Shown piece after piece: positions 1-41,664 of a stretch of 64,000 nucleotides of DNA. The stretch spans positions 14,666 to 78,665 of the forward strand of contig VXPE01000122.1 of the NCBI GenBank assembly GCA_009839745.1, read 5' to 3'. The stretch's first letter is position 1; each line of letters opens with the position of its first letter. The notes under the pieces were generated by a model. The model worked only from the letters and a program-made list of their open reading frames with translations, searched no databases and was not told the DNA's origin. Made by a program: the position numbers and the translations under genes. The stretch is from Candidatus Poribacteria bacterium. Its GTDB lineage: Bacteria; Poribacteria; WGA-4E; WGA-3G.

Positions 1-57
1 TTTTAGATCGGCGTTGACAACGGAAACGCCGTCCAGAAGCACATGGTTAAAAAAACG
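1..57 (+). repeat. Family A leader element, copy A1
   Basis: The 55 bases from position 1 recur exactly at 141-195. The hairpin spans 9-31, with left arm CGGCGTTG, loop ACAACG and right arm GAAACGCCG, and a tail runs to GTTAAAAAA. Where the other copies meet an ATG, this one reads ACG and no gene follows. It is probably a duplicated or orphaned copy whose start codon was lost. Confidence 0.8.
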
Positions 58-140
58 ATTAAAGCTGTGTCGTGCTCGTTGTCCTTGCAGTATTCCAATT
101 GTTAACAGACCCTTCATAACCTGAAACAGAATCTTAACAA

Positions 141-194
141 TTTTAGATCGGCGTTGACAACGGAAACGCCGTCCAGAAGCACATGGTTAAAAAA
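141..194 (+). repeat. Family A leader element, copy A2, abutting a start codon
   Basis: This is an exact copy of positions 1-54. The hairpin lies at 149-171 and its 3' tail GTTAAAAAA runs directly into the ATG at 195. The 85 bases between A1 and A2 hold no gene that I can recognise. Confidence 0.8.
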
Positions 195-1016
195 ATGAAA
201 CTTTCACTTTCCGTCCGCGTCGCAGAAACGGCATCGAAAAGAGATGCCACGCATACCTTTGAACAACTGACTGAACTGGCAGCAGGACTCGGCTACGAGG
301 CAGTCTGCATGCGTGCCTCCCAAGTCGGTATCCACTCGCCTTTGGAGCACATTACCGCCGCGCGCAAACAGGCGGCATCGCTTAACCTGAAGGTCTCAAT
401 GATCACTGGGGATTTTCCTGTTCCGCTCAACAACGAGCAAGGACCGGATGGACTCCGCAATATAACCCCCTATCTGGATTTAACGGAACTTCTTGGCGCG
501 GATCTCATCCGCATTGCGATGAAAGTCGAGGCAGACATCCCATGGGCACAACGTGCCTCCGATGAAGCCGCTGAGCGCGGTATCCGTCTGGCACATCAAT
601 CGCATACGCAAAGTCTGTTTGAAACGGTAGAGGGTTCAGTCGATGTATTGAAGCGGGTGGGTAGAAAAAATTTCGGGATCATCTATGAACCTGCCAACCT
701 CGACCTGTGTGCTCAAGATTACGGTGTTGAGACACTCAAACGCTTTTCACCGTATCTTTTCAATGTCTATCTTCAGAATCACATTCGCCGACCAGAGGGA
801 AAGACACGCCTTTTGACGTGGATTCAGGGTGAAGTCCCGCACGATCCGATCCGTTTGCAGGACGAAGGTGGCATCGATTATCCACTGGTGTTTCGCGGAC
901 TGAAAGCGCTCAGTTACGATGGATACGTGACGGTGCATCAGGCATTCCGAGAAATTATGGAGCCTGAAGACGCAGCGGAGCAGAGTTACACCTATCTCAA
1001 ACCCTTTTGTGGATAG
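195..1016 (+). CDS. Sugar phosphate isomerase/epimerase-like TIM-barrel protein
   Basis: The 273-residue product resembles the xylose isomerase-like TIM-barrel family (AP endonuclease family 2 fold), which isomerises or epimerises sugars and inositol derivatives with a bound divalent metal. Visible family-like stretches include the N-terminal LSVRVAE strand, IYEPANLDL in the middle, and GYVTVHQAF near the end, which supply the acidic and histidine metal ligands expected of the fold. I chose the ATG at 195 because the leader element ends exactly there; an in-frame ATG at 183 lies inside that element. A sulfatase follows 22 bases downstream, so the two are probably co-transcribed. The substrate cannot be inferred. 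Confidence 0.8.
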   Translation: MKLSLSVRVAETASKRDATHTFEQLTELAAGLGYEAVCMRASQVGIHSPLEHITAARKQAASLNLKVSMITGDFPVPLNNEQGPDGLRNITPYLDLTELLGADLIRIAMKVEADIPWAQRASDEAAERGIRLAHQSHTQSLFETVEGSVDVLKRVGRKNFGIIYEPANLDLCAQDYGVETLKRFSPYLFNVYLQNHIRRPEGKTRLLTWIQGEVPHDPIRLQDEGGIDYPLVFRGLKALSYDGYVTVHQAFREIMEPEDAAEQSYTYLKPFCG

Positions 1017-14309: not shown

Positions 14310-15176
14310 CTATTTGCCAAGGTGCATTTCATAACGAAAGGTGACACCGGGGAGGCTCAACATTTCATCCAAAGGGGGCATCTGTTTAATTCCGACGAGT
14401 TGCTCAAGGAGCGATGTCTTTTTCTCCTTACGCACGACCTTGGGTTTGCCTTCAATACCTGCTAACGCTCCGGCGGTTTCAATCGCATCAGGGAGATTAC
14501 CGAGTTGGTCCAGTAACTTTGAATCTAACGCCTGCTTTCCAGAGAAAATGCGTCCATCTGCAAGTGCAACAATTTCGTCGCGCGTTAAGTGATTCCCCCG
14601 TGCCTCAAAGATTGTATCCACAAATTGATTGTAAACATCGTCCACAGTGGATTGGAGAACGGCTCGTTCCTGTTCCGTCAACTCGCGGAAAGGTGAACCT
14701 GTATCTTTAAAGTCGCCGCTCTTAATGACTTGATGCCCTAAGCCGACTTTGTCGTATAAACCCTTTAGTTGCGTGAATTGCATGATAACGCCGATGCTAC
14801 CTGTCAAGGTGCCGGGGTTTGCGAAGATCGTGTCGGCGGCGCACGCGACATAGTAGCCGCCAGATGCCGCACTCCCGCCCATTGAAGCGACTACAGGCTT
14901 CTCTATTTTCTTCAATTCGCTGTAAATCTCTTGGACCGGGGCGACACTGCCGCCGGGGGAGTTGATTCTAACGACAATTGCTTTGATACTTTGATCATCG
15001 CGGTAAGTGTGAATTAGTTTAATTGTGTCATCTGAGCCTGAGATAATACCCGTAATGTCTACGACTGCGACCTTTTCTCCTATTGACACGTTGCTGCCCA
15101 TTGACCGTAAAAACAGCAGCACGAAGAACAGCGCGATGATAGTTCCTAAAATAATGTAAACACGTCTCTTTCTCAT
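14310..15176 (-). CDS. sppA: Signal peptide peptidase SppA, 36K type
   Basis: The 288-residue membrane-anchored serine protease has one N-terminal transmembrane segment (about 5-24). The catalytic serine lies in GGSAASGGYYVA and the catalytic lysine in SGDFKDTGSPFR. It cleaves remnant signal peptides in the membrane. Length and single-domain layout match the short, Bacillus-type SppA. A family B element ends exactly at its ATG. A second, long SppA is at 37999, so both architectures occur in this genome. Confidence 0.92.
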   Translation of the reverse strand: MRKRRVYIILGTIIALFFVLLFLRSMGSNVSIGEKVAVVDITGIISGSDDTIKLIHTYRDDQSIKAIVVRINSPGGSVAPVQEIYSELKKIEKPVVASMGGSAASGGYYVACAADTIFANPGTLTGSIGVIMQFTQLKGLYDKVGLGHQVIKSGDFKDTGSPFRELTEQERAVLQSTVDDVYNQFVDTIFEARGNHLTRDEIVALADGRIFSGKQALDSKLLDQLGNLPDAIETAGALAGIEGKPKVVRKEKKTSLLEQLVGIKQMPPLDEMLSLPGVTFRYEMHLGK

Positions 15177-18097: not shown

Positions 18098-18150
18098 ATT
18101 TTAATTATTCCTTGCGGTTAAACAGTGTGGGTTCGGACTTTGACATGTCT
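18098..18150 (-). repeat. Family B leader element, copy B2
   Basis: On the minus strand the core CCGCAAGGAATAATTAAAAT (18117-18098) runs directly into the ATG of the epimerase gene. Its upstream part forms the last codons and stop of the preceding glycosyltransferase (TAA at 18118-18120). One element thus ends one gene and begins the next. Confidence 0.75.
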
Positions 18151-19371
18151 TTTCCGTGTATGAACTGCCTGTGCATAGACATGCTCTAAGCGTTCGCCGA
18201 TGGCTTCCCAACTATAATTGGTTTCGACGCGAGTTCTGGCGGTTTGCGCGAAAGTCTCTCGCGAATGCACATTATTCAGTAAATGAACGACCTGTTTCGT
18301 AAAGTCGGCGGGTGTATCGGCAACGAGTAATTCCTTGCCGATGTCTGCCTCTAACCCCATTGCACCAACGGAGGTTGTGACAACTGGCACTCCCATCGCC
18401 ATTGCCTCCAGGTTTTTTGTTTGTATGCCTGATCCTGCCCGTAAAGGGGCAACAAAAACAGACGCCTTTTCAAAATAGGGGCGGATGTCTGGAACATAAC
18501 CTGTGACGACTACACCGTCCTGTGTCTCAAGCCGCTTTACCTGATCCGATGGATGATTGCCTACTATATAAAATTGCGCGTTCGGATGACTCTCGCGGAT
18601 ACGCGGAAAAATCTCGTTACAAAAATAGATTGCGGCATCCGAATTCGGAAAATAGTTCATTGTTCCGGTAAAGAGCATCAAGGGTGTGGATTGTGCTGCT
18701 GACTTCGGTTGAAAATATCCGAGATCGACCCCCATTGGAACTATCGACAGATTTAGAGTGTTGTCCTGCTTTAGGAGATAGTCCTGATCAAAACGTGCGA
18801 CAACAGTGCCGCAGTCAAAAGCCTTCATAATGTTGACTTCGTAACGCCGGACCCGCTTTTCCTCTAATTTTACCAAAAAACGCTTTGGAGTGCAATCTAA
18901 TTTAATTTTCGCGAGCCACGGATTGCTTTCCAGTTCGGCGCGACGGCTCAGATTTAGTGCCAATGAATCACACAAATCTAAGACTTTGGTGGGACCCTGG
19001 ACTTCCGTCACGTATTGTCCCATCCGAAAGAGTTGTGCGTGAATCAGTTCAAAGTTCTCTTGTTCGAGGAGTTGGTTAATCTTCCGTTGCATCTGGGGTG
19101 AGTACCAGTAATGCAACTGAAGTGGACGACGCGATAAGCAGTGGATCCCTGTATTCATGAAGGCAAAAGAACGATGAAAACGGACCCATTCTACGCGTTC
19201 ACAAAAGGGTTCTAAATGCTTCGCGGATTCAATATCGTTTCCAGATTCTGCAAAGTAAACGAGTGTTACGGCATGTTGTTTCGAAAGTTGTTTAATAAAA
19301 TTGTAAGACCGGATCCGATCGCCCCGATGTGGTGGATATGGGCATCGGAGGCTTAAAAATAGAATCTTCAT
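18118..19371 (-). CDS. GT4-family glycosyltransferase, similar to exosortase-linked sugar transferases
   Basis: The 417-residue GT-B enzyme opens MKILFLSLRCPYPPHRGD and has the C-terminal nucleotide-sugar site stretches LFTGTMNYFPN, VTGYVPDIRPYFE and PLRAGSGIQTKNLEAMAMG with the E-x7-E pattern. The beginning resembles the TIGR03087 group associated with PEP-CTERM/exosortase systems, though no exosortase is in view. It probably adds a sugar during surface polysaccharide synthesis, together with the two genes downstream. The ATG is preceded by CCATAGTTAAAAAG, resembling the tail of family A elements but without a clear hairpin. Confidence 0.9.
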   Translation of the reverse strand: MKILFLSLRCPYPPHRGDRIRSYNFIKQLSKQHAVTLVYFAESGNDIESAKHLEPFCERVEWVRFHRSFAFMNTGIHCLSRRPLQLHYWYSPQMQRKINQLLEQENFELIHAQLFRMGQYVTEVQGPTKVLDLCDSLALNLSRRAELESNPWLAKIKLDCTPKRFLVKLEEKRVRRYEVNIMKAFDCGTVVARFDQDYLLKQDNTLNLSIVPMGVDLGYFQPKSAAQSTPLMLFTGTMNYFPNSDAAIYFCNEIFPRIRESHPNAQFYIVGNHPSDQVKRLETQDGVVVTGYVPDIRPYFEKASVFVAPLRAGSGIQTKNLEAMAMGVPVVTTSVGAMGLEADIGKELLVADTPADFTKQVVHLLNNVHSRETFAQTARTRVETNYSWEAIGERLEHVYAQAVHTRKRHVKVRTHTV

Positions 19372-19392
19372 CTTTTTAACTATGGAACATCT

Positions 19393-19686
19393 TCATTCGC
19401 TGCGTTTTTCGTCGGGCAATTCCGCTTCATCAATCAGCATAACTGGGATGCCTTCACGGATCGGATAGCGACGTTGACATCTGCCGACACACACGAGTTT
19501 CTGTGCCGTTTCATGGTATTCTATCCCACCTTTACAGGCTGGACATGCGAGAATCTCAAGTAGCGTCTTTGAAATTTTAATTTTACCTTGCGGTTCGGTG
19601 AGGTCATTTGAATGAACAACGATCCTCTCCGTAGAGCCGCCCTCCTTGTGCAAGTTTTTGGTGTGAAGTCTTAGCCTCCGTGGCAT
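19393..19686 (-). CDS. Trm112-like small zinc-ribbon protein
   Basis: The last 60 residues ([16 protein letters not shown], then [25 protein letters not shown]) are a typical Trm112/YcaR-like domain. In other organisms such proteins activate methyltransferases; in bacteria their role is mostly unknown. The start is uncertain. The frame is open from an ATG at 19686 that overlaps the secA stop, but the first 36 or so residues come from spacer and a family B repeat ([10 protein letters not shown]). Relatives begin near [10 protein letters not shown], where this gene has ATT instead of ATG. Either the long form is made by coupling to secA, or ATT is used. Confidence 0.8.
19571..19606 (-). repeat. 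Family B leader element, copy B3, read in frame
   Basis: On the minus strand, CACCGAACCGCAAGG is followed by TAAAATTAAAATTTC. It sits just where the Trm112-like domain should start but offers no ATG. It is translated as [10 protein letters not shown] if the long form is made. Confidence 0.7.
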
Positions 19687-22466
19687 CTCTTATATTTCTT
19701 GCCGCTTCCGCAAGGACAAGGTGCGTTTCTACCGACCTTCGGGATGTTCCCCATCGCCTGTTGCGAAGCAAATTCGGCATCAGCACGGGTTGCGGCTGCA
19801 CGGTTGCGTTGGGGTGCCCTCGGCTGGGGTCTACGCCGTCTGTCCGTTCGCTGACTCGGTGCCCTACGCGGTGCCTCGGTATTAACGCGAGATTTGAAGA
19901 TGAACTCACTGACCTGTTCCTCAATCTGTTGATACATATTTTCAAAGACAGAGAGCGCTTCGTTTTTGAAAACGACGATCGGGTCTTTGCCGCCATATCC
20001 TGCGCCGAACCGAATACCTTCCTCAATATAGTCGATGTTATGGAGGTGTTCCTTCCAGTGATCATCAATTCGGTCCAAAAGGAGTAAGCGTTCAAGGATA
20101 CGCATCATTCCTGGACCCATTTCTGCTTCGCGGGCTTCATAAGCGGTGCGCAACACCTGCAGTGTTTGTTCTTGAACCTCCTCGGGACTCGCCTGCGCCA
20201 AGGGTGTTTCCCATATCGGCTCGACTGGGAATGTGGTCGTCAACCACTGTTGAAACCGGTCAGGGGTCTCAAGGGGGCTTTCCGCCTTTTCTCCCATATT
20301 GTCCTCAATTGCATCTCTGACAACCCTCTCAATCATTCCCCAAATTGTGGTTTTGAGAGAGGTAGGGACTTTGGCATCCTTTTCAGCGAGTGCGGCGAGC
20401 CCCCCCTCGTCTGCCGTCTGTGCGTGTTCTTCAGGTAATTCGGCGATATCCGTGGTAGCAGCCAAGACGGTGTCCCGCAAGGTGTAGATGGTGTCGCGCT
20501 GTGTATCCATGACATCATCGAATTTGAGAAGATTCTTTCGGATCTCGAAATACATCTGTTCAACACGCGTCTGTGCCTTCTCAATGGATTTGGTGACCCA
20601 CGGATGCTCTAACGGGACGCCTTCATCTATTCCGGCGCGTGACATTAACCCTTGCAAACGCTCAGATCCGAATTTTCGCATCAATTCGTCTTCAAGGGAG
20701 AGATAGAATCGGGATGAACCTGGGTCGCCCTGTCTCCCGGCGCGCCCACGGAGTTGGTTATCAATACGGCGGGACTCGTGGCGTTCAGTGCCGACGATAT
20801 GGAGTCCTCCAGCGGCTAATACGTTCTCTCTGTTTTCGTCGCAAATGGCTTGCGCTTCTGCGAGTGCTGCTTGGAATTCTTCGGACTCTGGGGAGAGCGC
20901 TTCTGTCTTCGCTTTCCGTTTCCGGAGCGTTTCGAGTGCCATACCTTCGGGGTTACCGCCAAGGAGAATGTCTACACCTCTACCTGCCATATTCGTTGCG
21001 ATTGTCACAGCGCCCGGCACTCCTGCTTGTGCGATGATGTCGGCTTCGCGTGCGTGCTCTTTGGCGTTCAGCACCTGATGGCGGATTTTACGGTGTTTGG
21101 TTCTGAGCATTTTGCTCAATTTCTCGGAATTTTCAATCGAAACAGTGCCAACAAGGACGGGACGTCCTTTCTCGGTTTGCTCGACGATATCTTCCAGAAC
21201 GGCACTGTATTTTGCGTCTTCAGTGCTGTAAATTTGATCGGAATTGTCAACCCGGATCATCGGTTCGTTGGTGGGAATGACGGAAACCTCTAATCCATAG
21301 ATGTGTGCGAATTCGTTGGCTTCCGTAGCGGCGGTCCCTGTCATACCTGCGAGTTTGTTATACATGCGGAAGTAGTTTTGGTAGGTAATCTTGGCACCGG
21401 TTTCGCTTTCCTCAACGACCTTAACGCGTTCTTTCGCTTCAATGGCTTGATGGAGTCCTTCACTGAGCCGTCTCCCGATCTGTTTCCGTCCTGTGAATTC
21501 GTCAACGAGAAGGACTTCGCCATTTTCGACGAGGTAATCGACATCGCGCTTATAGAGCTGGTGCGCAGAAAGTGCCTGATTGACGTGATGCACCATAGCG
21601 ATGTTGGTGTGTTCATAGAGATTCCCCACGCCGAGACGCCGTTCGACTTCCTCAACGCCTTCATCGGTCAGGGTTGCACTGCCGCGCGATTTCCCCTGTT
21701 GATCGATTTGAAAGTGTTCACCTTCTCGGAGTTGTGCGACGACGCCGTTAATTTGCTTGTAAAGTTCTGGTGGTTTACCGGAGGGTTCTGAGATGATGAG
21801 GGGCGTGCGGGATTCATCAATGAGGATGCTGTCAACTTCGTCAAGGATGGCGTAGACATGCCCGCGCTGGACCTTATCTTCAACTGAGAGGGATTTGTTG
21901 TCCCAGAGGTAATCGAATCCAAATTCGCTGTGAACGCCGTAGGTAATGTCTGATTTGTATCCGAGTCTTTTCTGTTCCTTCGGCATTAGACTGAGTGTCA
22001 ATCCCACAGAGAGTCCGAGGAAGTTATAAATTTTGCCCATCCATTCGGCATCACGCCGGGCGAGGTAGTCGTTGACGGTGGCAAGGTGGACACCTTTTCC
22101 CGTCAAAGCGTTCAGATAGACGGCGAGGGTTGAGGTAAGCGTTTTGCCTTCACCCGTGCGCATCTCTGCGATAGTGCCTCGGTGGAGTGCGATACCGCCC
22201 ATGAGTTGGACATCGTAGTGTCGCTGCTTTAGGGTTCGCACCGCGGCTTCACGGACGACAGCGAAGGCGTCTGGTAAGAGGTCATCAAGGGATACCCCGG
22301 CATCCAACTGTCGGCGAAATTCTGGTGTTTTGGATTGCAGTTGGGCATCGGTGAGTTTTTTGATTTCGGGTTCGCGTTGATTGATGGCTTCAACGATGTC
22401 GCGAAACTTCTTGACATCACGATCCTCTTTACTGCCGAAGACTTTGGTTATCATTTTTTGGAACAT
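19671..22466 (-). CDS. secA: Preprotein translocase ATPase SecA
   Basis: The 931-residue motor drives preproteins through SecYEG. NBD1 holds MRTGEGKTL (Walker A, about residue 100) and [16 protein letters not shown] (Walker B). The preprotein cross-linking region, NBD2 ([25 protein letters not shown]) and the helical scaffold follow. The C terminus is an arginine-rich linker and a zinc/SecB-binding SEC-C motif ([15 protein letters not shown]). The length is within the family range. The ATG at 22466 is directly preceded by a family A element with its hairpin. Confidence 0.97.
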
Positions 22467-22511
22467 TTTTTTAACTATTGCTCCTGGGCGCCTTTCACGT
22501 TGTGAAAGGCG
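22467..22511 (-). repeat. Family A leader element, copy A3, abutting secA
   Basis: On the minus strand, a hairpin at 22511-22489 has left arm CGCCTTTC, loop ACAACG and right arm TGAAAGGCG. The tail CCCAGGAGCAATA then GTTAAAAAA runs directly into the secA ATG. Arm lengths and loop match copies A1, A2 and A4, but the stem sequence differs with pairing kept. AGGAG in the tail could be the ribosome site, 14 bases from the ATG. Confidence 0.75.
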
Positions 22512-22542
22512 ATATATTTCTAAGTCGTGATCGACTTGGCAT

Positions 22543-39819: not shown

Positions 39820-40605
39820 ATGCAATCTAACGACAATTTGCACGTTGATGTAACTGATGAACAGATCGCCTTCTTTCGAGAAAACGGATACCTGAGCATT
39901 CCACGTATTACAACAGAAGCAGAGGTAGAATGGCTCAAAGGCATCTACGATGAACTCTTCACGGAACGGACTGGCGAAGCGGAGGGACGGTATTTCGATC
40001 TTGCGGGTCCGCGTGCGCATACCGGACGAGAGACGTTGCCGCAGGTGTTAGGTCCAGAGGCGCGATTCCCGGAACTCCGTGAGACTGTCTATTTCCGAAA
40101 CGCGCAGCGGCTCGCCGCGAAATTGCTCCGTGTGTCAACTGACAAGGTGAGCGGCGGTGGACACATGATTTTGAAGCCTGCGCATTATGGCAATGAAACG
40201 CCGTGGCATCAAGATGAGGCGTATTGGAATCCAGAGGTGCTACCGCACAGTCTGAGTGTTTGGCTGCCACTTGATAAGGCGACAGTTGAAAGTGGGTGTC
40301 TCCAATTTATCCCGAAATCTCACAAAGGCGGGGTGCGTTGGCATCGGCACATTGACAACGATCCACTCGTGCACGGGTTGGTGACAGATGATGTTGATGT
40401 ATCCGAGGCAGTGGCATGCCCGATACCGGCAGGCGGTGCGACTTTCCATCACTGTCGGACTTTGCACTATTCTGCGCCGAACCGGACACCGGAAGCACGT
40501 AGAGCGTATATTCTCGTCTTTGGTGGACCCCCTAAGAAACTGGATACACCGGCGCATCGTCCATGGCAAAAGGAAGAACAGGAGGCACTTTTGGATCGAT
40601 GCTGA
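39820..40605 (+). CDS. Phytanoyl-CoA dioxygenase family protein
   Basis: The 261-residue non-haem Fe(II)/2-oxoglutarate oxygenase has the iron ligands in WHQDEAYW (H-x-D) and LHYSAP (distal histidine), with the 2-oxoglutarate arginine in EARRAYIL. The substrate is unknown; the family hydroxylates lipids, small metabolites and natural products. It begins three bases after the sppA stop. Its own stop TGA (40603-40605) lies inside the hairpin of the following family A element. Confidence 0.9.
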   Translation: MQSNDNLHVDVTDEQIAFFRENGYLSIPRITTEAEVEWLKGIYDELFTERTGEAEGRYFDLAGPRAHTGRETLPQVLGPEARFPELRETVYFRNAQRLAAKLLRVSTDKVSGGGHMILKPAHYGNETPWHQDEAYWNPEVLPHSLSVWLPLDKATVESGCLQFIPKSHKGGVRWHRHIDNDPLVHGLVTDDVDVSEAVACPIPAGGATFHHCRTLHYSAPNRTPEARRAYILVFGGPPKKLDTPAHRPWQKEEQEALLDRC

Positions 40606-40641
40606 CAACGGAGGCATCGCCAAGAGTACATAGTTAAAAAA
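40589..40641 (+). repeat. Family A leader element, copy A4
   Basis: The hairpin at 40597-40619 has left arm CGATGCTG, loop ACAACG and right arm GAGGCATCG. A tail CCAAGAGTACATA then GTTAAAAAA ends at the ATG at 40642. Compared with A2, three stem pairs have changed on both sides at once while the loop and 3' end are the same. Confidence 0.85.
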
Positions 40642-41664
40642 ATGAAAATTATTTGTACGGGTATCAGTTGTTCAGGACGTAAGGAGCTGATGGCGAATTT
40701 TAAGATACTGTGCATGAAACGGAAGTTGAACATCGGTTTCTTCAATGTCGGCGATGTGATGCACCGTGTTGCTGCGGAGGCGCGTGTCCATTTTACGGAC
40801 AAAGTGCTTGATTCGGATCCTGCGGTTTTATCATTGGCACGGCGCACGGCTTTCTATGAAATCGCTCGGCGCGCCGAGGATTATGAGCATGCTGTCATTG
40901 GATTACACGCCTGTTTCCGGTGGCGCGGGAGCCTTATTGAGGGATTTTCTTTTAAAGATATTGATATTCTTCTACCGGATCTGCTGATTAACGTTGTTGA
41001 CAACATCACCGATATATCGGAACGGATGGAAAACACGTCCCAATGGGAAGGGATGGGTAAAGCGGCACTCAACGTCTGGTTGGATGAAGAAGAGTTCCTG
41101 ACGCGGCAACTTGCACATTTCACGGAGAAACCCCATTATACCGTTGCGAGACAACACACTCTCGAAAATTTTTATGAACTCCTCTTTTCACCGAAGCCGA
41201 AATTTTACCTCAGCTACCCCATCACGCTCCTGAGAGATACGCCGAAGGAAATTGAGAAGATCCGCGAGATTGGAGAAAAACTGAGCCGTTCCTTCATTGT
41301 CTTCGATCCGCTCACGATCAAGGATATGGAACTCGTTACCCTCACGAAAGATGAAAGTGCTGATGCCCCACGCGTGAGTGAAATGGGTGAGGAAGTGATT
41401 GAACAGATTCAAACCCGAACGATCTCACGGGATTATCAGTTCGTTCACCAGAGCGATTTCGTAGTTGTGATTTATCCGACGGATAAGTTATCGCCGGGCG
41501 TTCTGAGCGAGATGAATTACGCTTCCCGCCATAACAAGCCTGTATATGCGGTTTATCCTGGAACCCGGAGTATCTTTTTCGAGAACTTGTGTGATCGGAT
41601 TTTTGATACATTTGAGGAGTTGGCGGATTTTCTGATTACTACCTATAAGACGGACGCAGGTTGA
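40642..41664 (+). CDS. Nucleotide kinase-like P-loop domain fused to a nucleoside 2-deoxyribosyltransferase-like domain
   Basis: The 340-residue protein opens IICTGISCSGRKELM, a P-loop where the usual lysine of GxxxxGK is arginine followed by lysine, then LNIGFFNVGDVM as in archaeal-type adenylate kinases. From about 187 (KFYLSYPIT) it resembles the 2-deoxyribosyltransferase/TIR-like fold, with DFVVVIYPTDKLSPGVLSEMNYASRHNKPVYAV, where the SPGVLSE glutamate is the expected catalytic residue. I cannot name a function. Nucleotide or NAD metabolism, or a sensor of these, would fit. It starts directly at a family A element. Confidence 0.65.
   Translation: MKIICTGISCSGRKELMANFKILCMKRKLNIGFFNVGDVMHRVAAEARVHFTDKVLDSDPAVLSLARRTAFYEIARRAEDYEHAVIGLHACFRWRGSLIEGFSFKDIDILLPDLLINVVDNITDISERMENTSQWEGMGKAALNVWLDEEEFLTRQLAHFTEKPHYTVARQHTLENFYELLFSPKPKFYLSYPITLLRDTPKEIEKIREIGEKLSRSFIVFDPLTIKDMELVTLTKDESADAPRVSEMGEEVIEQIQTRTISRDYQFVHQSDFVVVIYPTDKLSPGVLSEMNYASRHNKPVYAVYPGTRSIFFENLCDRIFDTFEELADFLITTYKTDAG

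Follow-up and report, generated by a model that had tools for sequence, protein, structure and literature searches.

An apparently undescribed palindromic repeat of sponge-associated Candidatus Poribacteria that often ends at start codons

The described systems closest to the repeat considered here are the REPINs, the MIRUs and the bacterial MITEs. Compensatory stem changes have been reported in REPINs (PMC3116915), MIRUs are mobile-looking repeats that lie at start codons in gene-dense regions (PMC12548453), and ERIC, Correia and other bacterial MITEs are elements of ~100–200 bp with terminal inverted repeats that are transcribed with genes and can alter their expression (PMC10969869). In a window of 64,000 nucleotides (the whole stretch of DNA that was analysed) from a Candidatus Poribacteria genome, and in related genomes, we find a repeat, designated family A, that resembles all three. 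Like the MIRUs it is placed at start codons, and like the MITEs it is of similar size and has terminal inverted repeats. In a MIRU, however, an ORF is coupled at −4 nt to the gene that follows, whereas family A has no conserved coupled ORF (the frames that end at −4 mostly lack a start codon and are inconsistent in length), and sequence and hosts are unrelated. From ERIC, Correia and the other MITEs it differs in sequence and hosts, and in its abutment to start codons and the exchange of its stem around a fixed loop, neither of which is described in the passages of PMC10969869 consulted. Family A fits the loose class of bacterial MITEs in all but an autonomous partner and a target duplication, and is a member of neither the REPINs nor the MIRUs. 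The precedents are the REPIN doublets with compensatory changes and the MIRUs at start codons; what is new is the combination of covarying stems and an invariant loop with start-codon placement.

Family A might be thought a true REPIN that a RAYT (Y1 transposase) mobilises, as it shares with REPINs the form of a short, intergenic, non-autonomous inverted hairpin doublet with compensatory stem changes of the kind reported (PMC3116915), and Y1_Tnp genes are present in the genome. We regard this as unlikely. The family A alignment has no conserved GTAG or CGTC foot, the repeat is longer (~150 bp), ends in TTTTAAC/GTTAAAA, has no linked RAYT and is strongly placed at start codons. No Y1 gene adjoins a family A copy, none of the 7 Y1 transposase genes of this genome has a family A hairpin within 1.5 kb, and REPs of the GTAG type lie on both sides of one of them. 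At locus L193, a Y1 gene at 1501–1800 has GTAGGTGCGG-type REPs at 1296, 1351 and 2029 and is likely a RAYT with its own GTAG-REP family. No gene-carrying (autonomous) copy of family A was present among the own-genome matches, and a candidate in genome G028, a 1.28-kb direct pair, was rejected as it encloses ordinary genes. Integron attC sites are folded, have a variable stem and YYYAAC...GTTRRR ends, and lie at the 3′ ends of cassette genes. Family A is also folded, with a variable stem and ends that resemble YYYAAC/GTTRRR, but it forms inverted doublets, is found at core genes such as secA rather than at the 3′ ends of cassette genes, and does not fully match RYYYAAC/GTTRRRY, and an attC assignment was rejected.

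Family A is a ~150-bp palindromic dispersed repeat, and the hairpin that the sequence-only reading had described as a leader in its own right is only one end of it. That hairpin is real and covarying; it is not an isolated unit and occupies the terminal 53–62 nt of a larger repeat, the full-length copies of which have, as is typical of short non-coding MITEs, terminal inverted repeats (TTTTAAC...GTTAAAA) and two inverted subterminal hairpins. A full-length copy reads TTTTTTAAC, followed by a first hairpin in reverse (usually CTGC...GCAG); beyond a central part come a second hairpin, whose stem is the exchanged one, and finally GTTAAAAAA. In the subterminal hairpin of each end the GACAACGGA loop is invariant and the stem exchanges freely, and the A tract of some copies contains an AGGAG-like motif. 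The genome has 20 exact matches to ACAACG(N20-36)GTTAAAAAA and 1 to the same pattern reversed, far above chance; for a related pattern the numbers are 37 and, with its reversed control, 1. With one full-length copy as the BLAST query, 53 places in the genome were recovered, many of them full-length at 77–100% identity; as with MITEs, the copies are multiple and dispersed and their occupancy differs among relatives. The whole element folds with z of −4.1 as RNA and −3.7 as DNA and beats 199 of 200 shuffles either way.

The four hairpins first noticed in the window, at 9–31, 149–171, 22489–22511 (minus strand) and 40597–40619, are present with the arms and loop described, and the covariance model recovers exactly those four. 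They are, however, not all independent. The right-end unit at 1–55 (plus strand; hairpin 9–31, tail to 55, model match 1–50) is not, because the 55 bases that precede a 10-N gap just outside the window (L014, 1653–1662) are identical to window positions 1–55. It is probably an assembly duplicate, in which contig ends overlapping by one k-mer were then scaffolded, and this would therefore leave three usable copies. The 9–31 copy sits within a tandem element and the 149–171 copy is part of a second, tandem one; with 55-base identical flanks around the 10-N gap, the tandem copy number at the window start is uncertain.

These three copies all abut an ATG, as had been claimed: at 195, at 22466 (minus strand; secA, see below) and at 40642. 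The element copy at 53–194 (plus strand) comprises a diverged left end (about 53–102), joined to the preceding copy via a common A tract, and a right end, and it aligns by BLAST to a full-length copy (query 33–152) at 98% identity. Its right-end hairpin, CGGCGTT-GACAACGGA-AACGCCG (149–171, plus strand; 68.7 bits with the covariance model), is followed by the tail TCCAGAAGCACATGGTTAAAAAA (172–194, plus strand), which abuts the ATG at 195 of a gene for a xylose-isomerase-like TIM barrel (195–1016, plus strand; Pfam PF01261), the orthologues of which begin at the same ATG. The copy at 40589–40641 (plus strand; 55.0 bits) is a half element, consisting of the right end only from TTTTGGATCG, with its hairpin at 40597–40619; it abuts the ATG at 40642 of a P-loop AAA_17 or kinase-like gene (40642–41664, plus strand; Pfam PF13207) and provides the stop codon of the upstream gene (TGA, 40603–40605). 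At 19372–19396 (minus strand), ahead of an ORF at 18118–19371, the leader ends in CATAGTTAAAAAGATG, a family A-like tail with no detectable hairpin.

The search of this and related genomes shows that the repeat extends well beyond the window copies, with 46 covariance-model matches in this genome. By DNA BLAST, family A was found in 23 of 60 genomes, every one in the same genus, while the covariance model was positive in all 38 same-genus genomes (2–50 matches each). Of three further genera in the family one was positive, and the 28 genomes from outside the family gave no match. The one positive genome of another genus, G064, has 27 matches, which suggests that family A is older or was transferred. 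An Rfam search at gathering and permissive thresholds gave no match, in agreement with the initial impression that no such family is described, and the literature search found no paper on the repeat in Poribacteria. Viral carriage was considered and rejected: 120 loose-pattern matches in viral contigs look like chance, and the model gave 1 match (E 0.12) over 80 fetched contigs. Family A is a real, family-restricted and apparently undescribed repeat family of sponge-associated Candidatus Poribacteria.

The covariation of its stems is strong. In 47 distinct stems selected on loop and tail alone, 76% of positions are paired against 47% (maximum 55%) with the arms shuffled. A 40-unit alignment has 95.5% of cells paired, a percentage favoured by the choice of units with ≥5 of 7 pairs, together with 71 double-change cells where shuffles give 20; its pairing score drops at every slide, and single-sided pairs are scarce in this dispersed set (9 of 200 cells). 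There are, as a natural set, at least 20 stem variants around one family A loop. Compensatory change had been taken as evidence of a selected RNA structure; it shows a conserved hairpin, which is compatible with RNA, with single-stranded DNA or with the copying of one arm by template switching, so that the part of the claim specifying RNA and selection does not follow.

The last of these would account for the covariation by mutation alone, with template switching at quasi-palindromes copying arm onto arm and producing matched arms without a selected structure. The 71 double-change cells and the rarity of one-sided pairs in the dispersed set (9/200) are as it would predict, and arms are likewise matched and exchanged in the unrelated family B (below). 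We consider it a possible but doubtful explanation, as the stems change while loop and flanks stay fixed, secA orthologues have G-U intermediates at changing pairs, and both the dispersal of the repeat and its placement at ATG are left unexplained.

The leader of secA (19671–22466, minus strand; Pfam SecA domains) is a family A right-end unit at 22467–22523 (minus strand; 54.2 bits with the covariance model), whose hairpin at 22489–22511 precedes the ATG it abuts at 22466. A second small hairpin, AAGTCG-ATCA-CGACTT, lies upstream in the same leader (22522–22537, minus strand) and has undergone compensatory change too. The protein-coding gene is up to 99% identical to that of named Poribacteria MAGs, and the leader unit is present in named Poribacteria relatives of several species. 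The secA copy has the loop context C-ACAACG-TG, not G-ACAACG-GA, and a stem two pairs longer, and in nine genomes both helices show covariation, with G-U intermediates where pairs change, in a small set whose shuffled control keeps no relatedness. The intermediates and the two covarying helices favour a constraint at the RNA level at this one gene. This right end is old and diverged, and the reading we propose is that it was kept as a leader with its hairpin preserved.

Clustering at start codons, which had been raised from four copies, holds across the genus. Among 97 genus copies compiled by hand (clear non-members and most orthologous repeats left out), 48 have an ATG at −1 to 4 nt from the end of GTTAAAA, 33 of them at offset 2, against a background averaging ~1.4 per offset at offsets 5–12. 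Of 86 ends at the fetched loci, 36 begin an ORF of ≥60 codons within the same −1 to 4 interval, compared with 2.9% of random places; pattern matches and fetched loci are the basis of these figures. Of the measured family A ends, about half thus stop a few bases from a start codon, where the repeat would become the gene leader, an insertion at start codons as in MIRUs. Abutment is commoner at right ends (39/68) than at left ends (9/29; p = 0.026), and Shine-Dalgarno motifs are weakly, and suggestively, richer at ATG-abutting ends (p = 0.055). Within the window, A4 tracts are ~9 times as dense beside starts as elsewhere in non-coding DNA, with repeat leaders counted in.

Occupancy of the same junctions differs between species. 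The stretch from the upstream stop codon to the ATG of the isomerase holds family A in this genome, G021 and G012. In the close relatives G008, G013 and G010 a different repeat leader is found there, and in more species still others. At the kinase-like gene, the half element is present in this genome and G008 only, is missing from other species, and also replaced the end of the upstream gene. Thirteen further orthologous sites were compared. At L027, G023 and G010 have a short (about 20-bp) spacer, 'GACATTTTTTATGGC', and the native start there is already CATAAAAAATG; at L032, G008 has a short native leader with CAGGAATTCAAAATATG and also CAAAATATG, and G010 and G013 have a family B leader; at L031, G008 is without family A; and at the tRNA-side site L029, G010 and G013 have a ~55-bp unrelated spacer. 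The old leader of an FtsX/MacB-like permease (L044) is common to four species. In other species, orthologous stop-start junctions hold either a repeat of another family or a short spacer of unrelated sequence, so that family A is gained and lost; occupancy therefore changes, with the stop codon and the ATG as its limits and with A/T tracts that pre-exist at some of them. Elsewhere among the species these stop-start junctions are filled by further palindromic repeats (AGGACTTACGCA..TGCGTAAGTCCT; CAGCGGTCAG..CTGACCGCTGA), as seen at loci L315, L317, L318, L325 and L348.

Of the two functions first suggested for the hairpin, this variation fits the mobile element, of which it would be one end. 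The other, a leader that senses a ligand or protein, is not supported, because the genes that follow the hairpin are unrelated to one another and orthologous genes show the element replaced, with sister species either lacking family A or carrying another repeat. As a general account, such a leader family would act in cis as RNA, with a protein (for example a GGA-binding, CsrA-like one) or a ligand binding the loop to control translation of a scattered regulon, and its copies would have spread because they are useful. The invariant loop GACAACGGA with its covarying stem, the half of ends at start codons with their right-end bias, and the secA leader, with G-U intermediates and two covarying helices in several species, all speak for it. 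Many copies, however, lie at gene ends, beside tRNA or in tandem, the hairpin belongs to an inverted pair like those of mobile doublets, and the enrichment of ribosome-site motifs (p = 0.055) is weak. We therefore judge it improbable and the less likely account for the family as a whole, while individual old copies such as that of secA may differ.

At several sites, among them L029 and the kinase site, the old spacer is missing, so that the event resembles a replacement more than a simple insertion, and therefore insertion plus deletion, or recombination. Leaders might accordingly have been exchanged as intergenic blocks, by homologous or illegitimate recombination, with no transposition of an element. 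Stop-to-start spacers are replaced whole, and the sharing of the isomerase copy among this genome, G021 and G012, but not the close relatives G008, G013 and G010, would be expected of such exchange. Copies at non-orthologous genes within one genome nevertheless require a copying step, and the ends of the element are constant whatever the flank, which makes exchange alone a rather doubtful explanation.

The hairpin of family B combines a loop that does not vary, AACGAAGTGGA, with stems that covary (75% paired, 50% when shuffled), and its tail, CCGCAAGG, is followed about 12 nt later by an ATG in 31 of 110 tails; its sequence is unrelated to that of family A and its architecture is the same. In the window it is found at 18118 (−), 19594 (−), 43460 (+), 54048 (−) and 61841 (+), and as the leader of 14310–15176 (−). 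It is conceivable, if unlikely, that unrelated repeat families (at least A and B) converged on an invariant loop ending in GGA, an exchangeable stem and an A-rich tail to the start codon, and so became interchangeable mobile 5′ leaders that share a host factor.

The reading we prefer, with a probability of about 70%, is that family A is a non-autonomous, ~150-bp palindromic MITE/REPIN-like mobile element of the Poribacteria lineage, which inserts into tracts at gene junctions and is tolerated there. A putative trans-acting enzyme would probably recognise the hairpin by its shape and loop and insert the element into short A or T tracts. Because such tracts lie directly 5′ of start codons in the genus, the element would tend to land at stop-start junctions, where its T tract could supply a TAA to end the upstream frame and its A tract could become the leader of the downstream gene. 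Insertion would be tolerated because the element contributes a stop codon at one end and an A-rich leader at the other, and old copies, such as that of secA, would be retained as leaders with the hairpin preserved. The analysis found no transposase gene linked to the ends of the element. No consistent target-site duplication was seen in 12 copies read by eye, with a TTAA duplication possible, and the right-end bias toward ATG runs against pure tract targeting, which predicts no such bias.

As a caution, compensatory change within a repeat is alone no proof of a regulatory RNA, and the stem variants around one loop would make the RNA and single-stranded DNA readings of the hairpin testable. If convergence of the leader families is true, gene leaders are swapped wholesale between species. 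Leaders that adjoin start codons turn over between close relatives of this group, and copies of an apparently undescribed repeat come to form the leaders even of such basic genes as secA.
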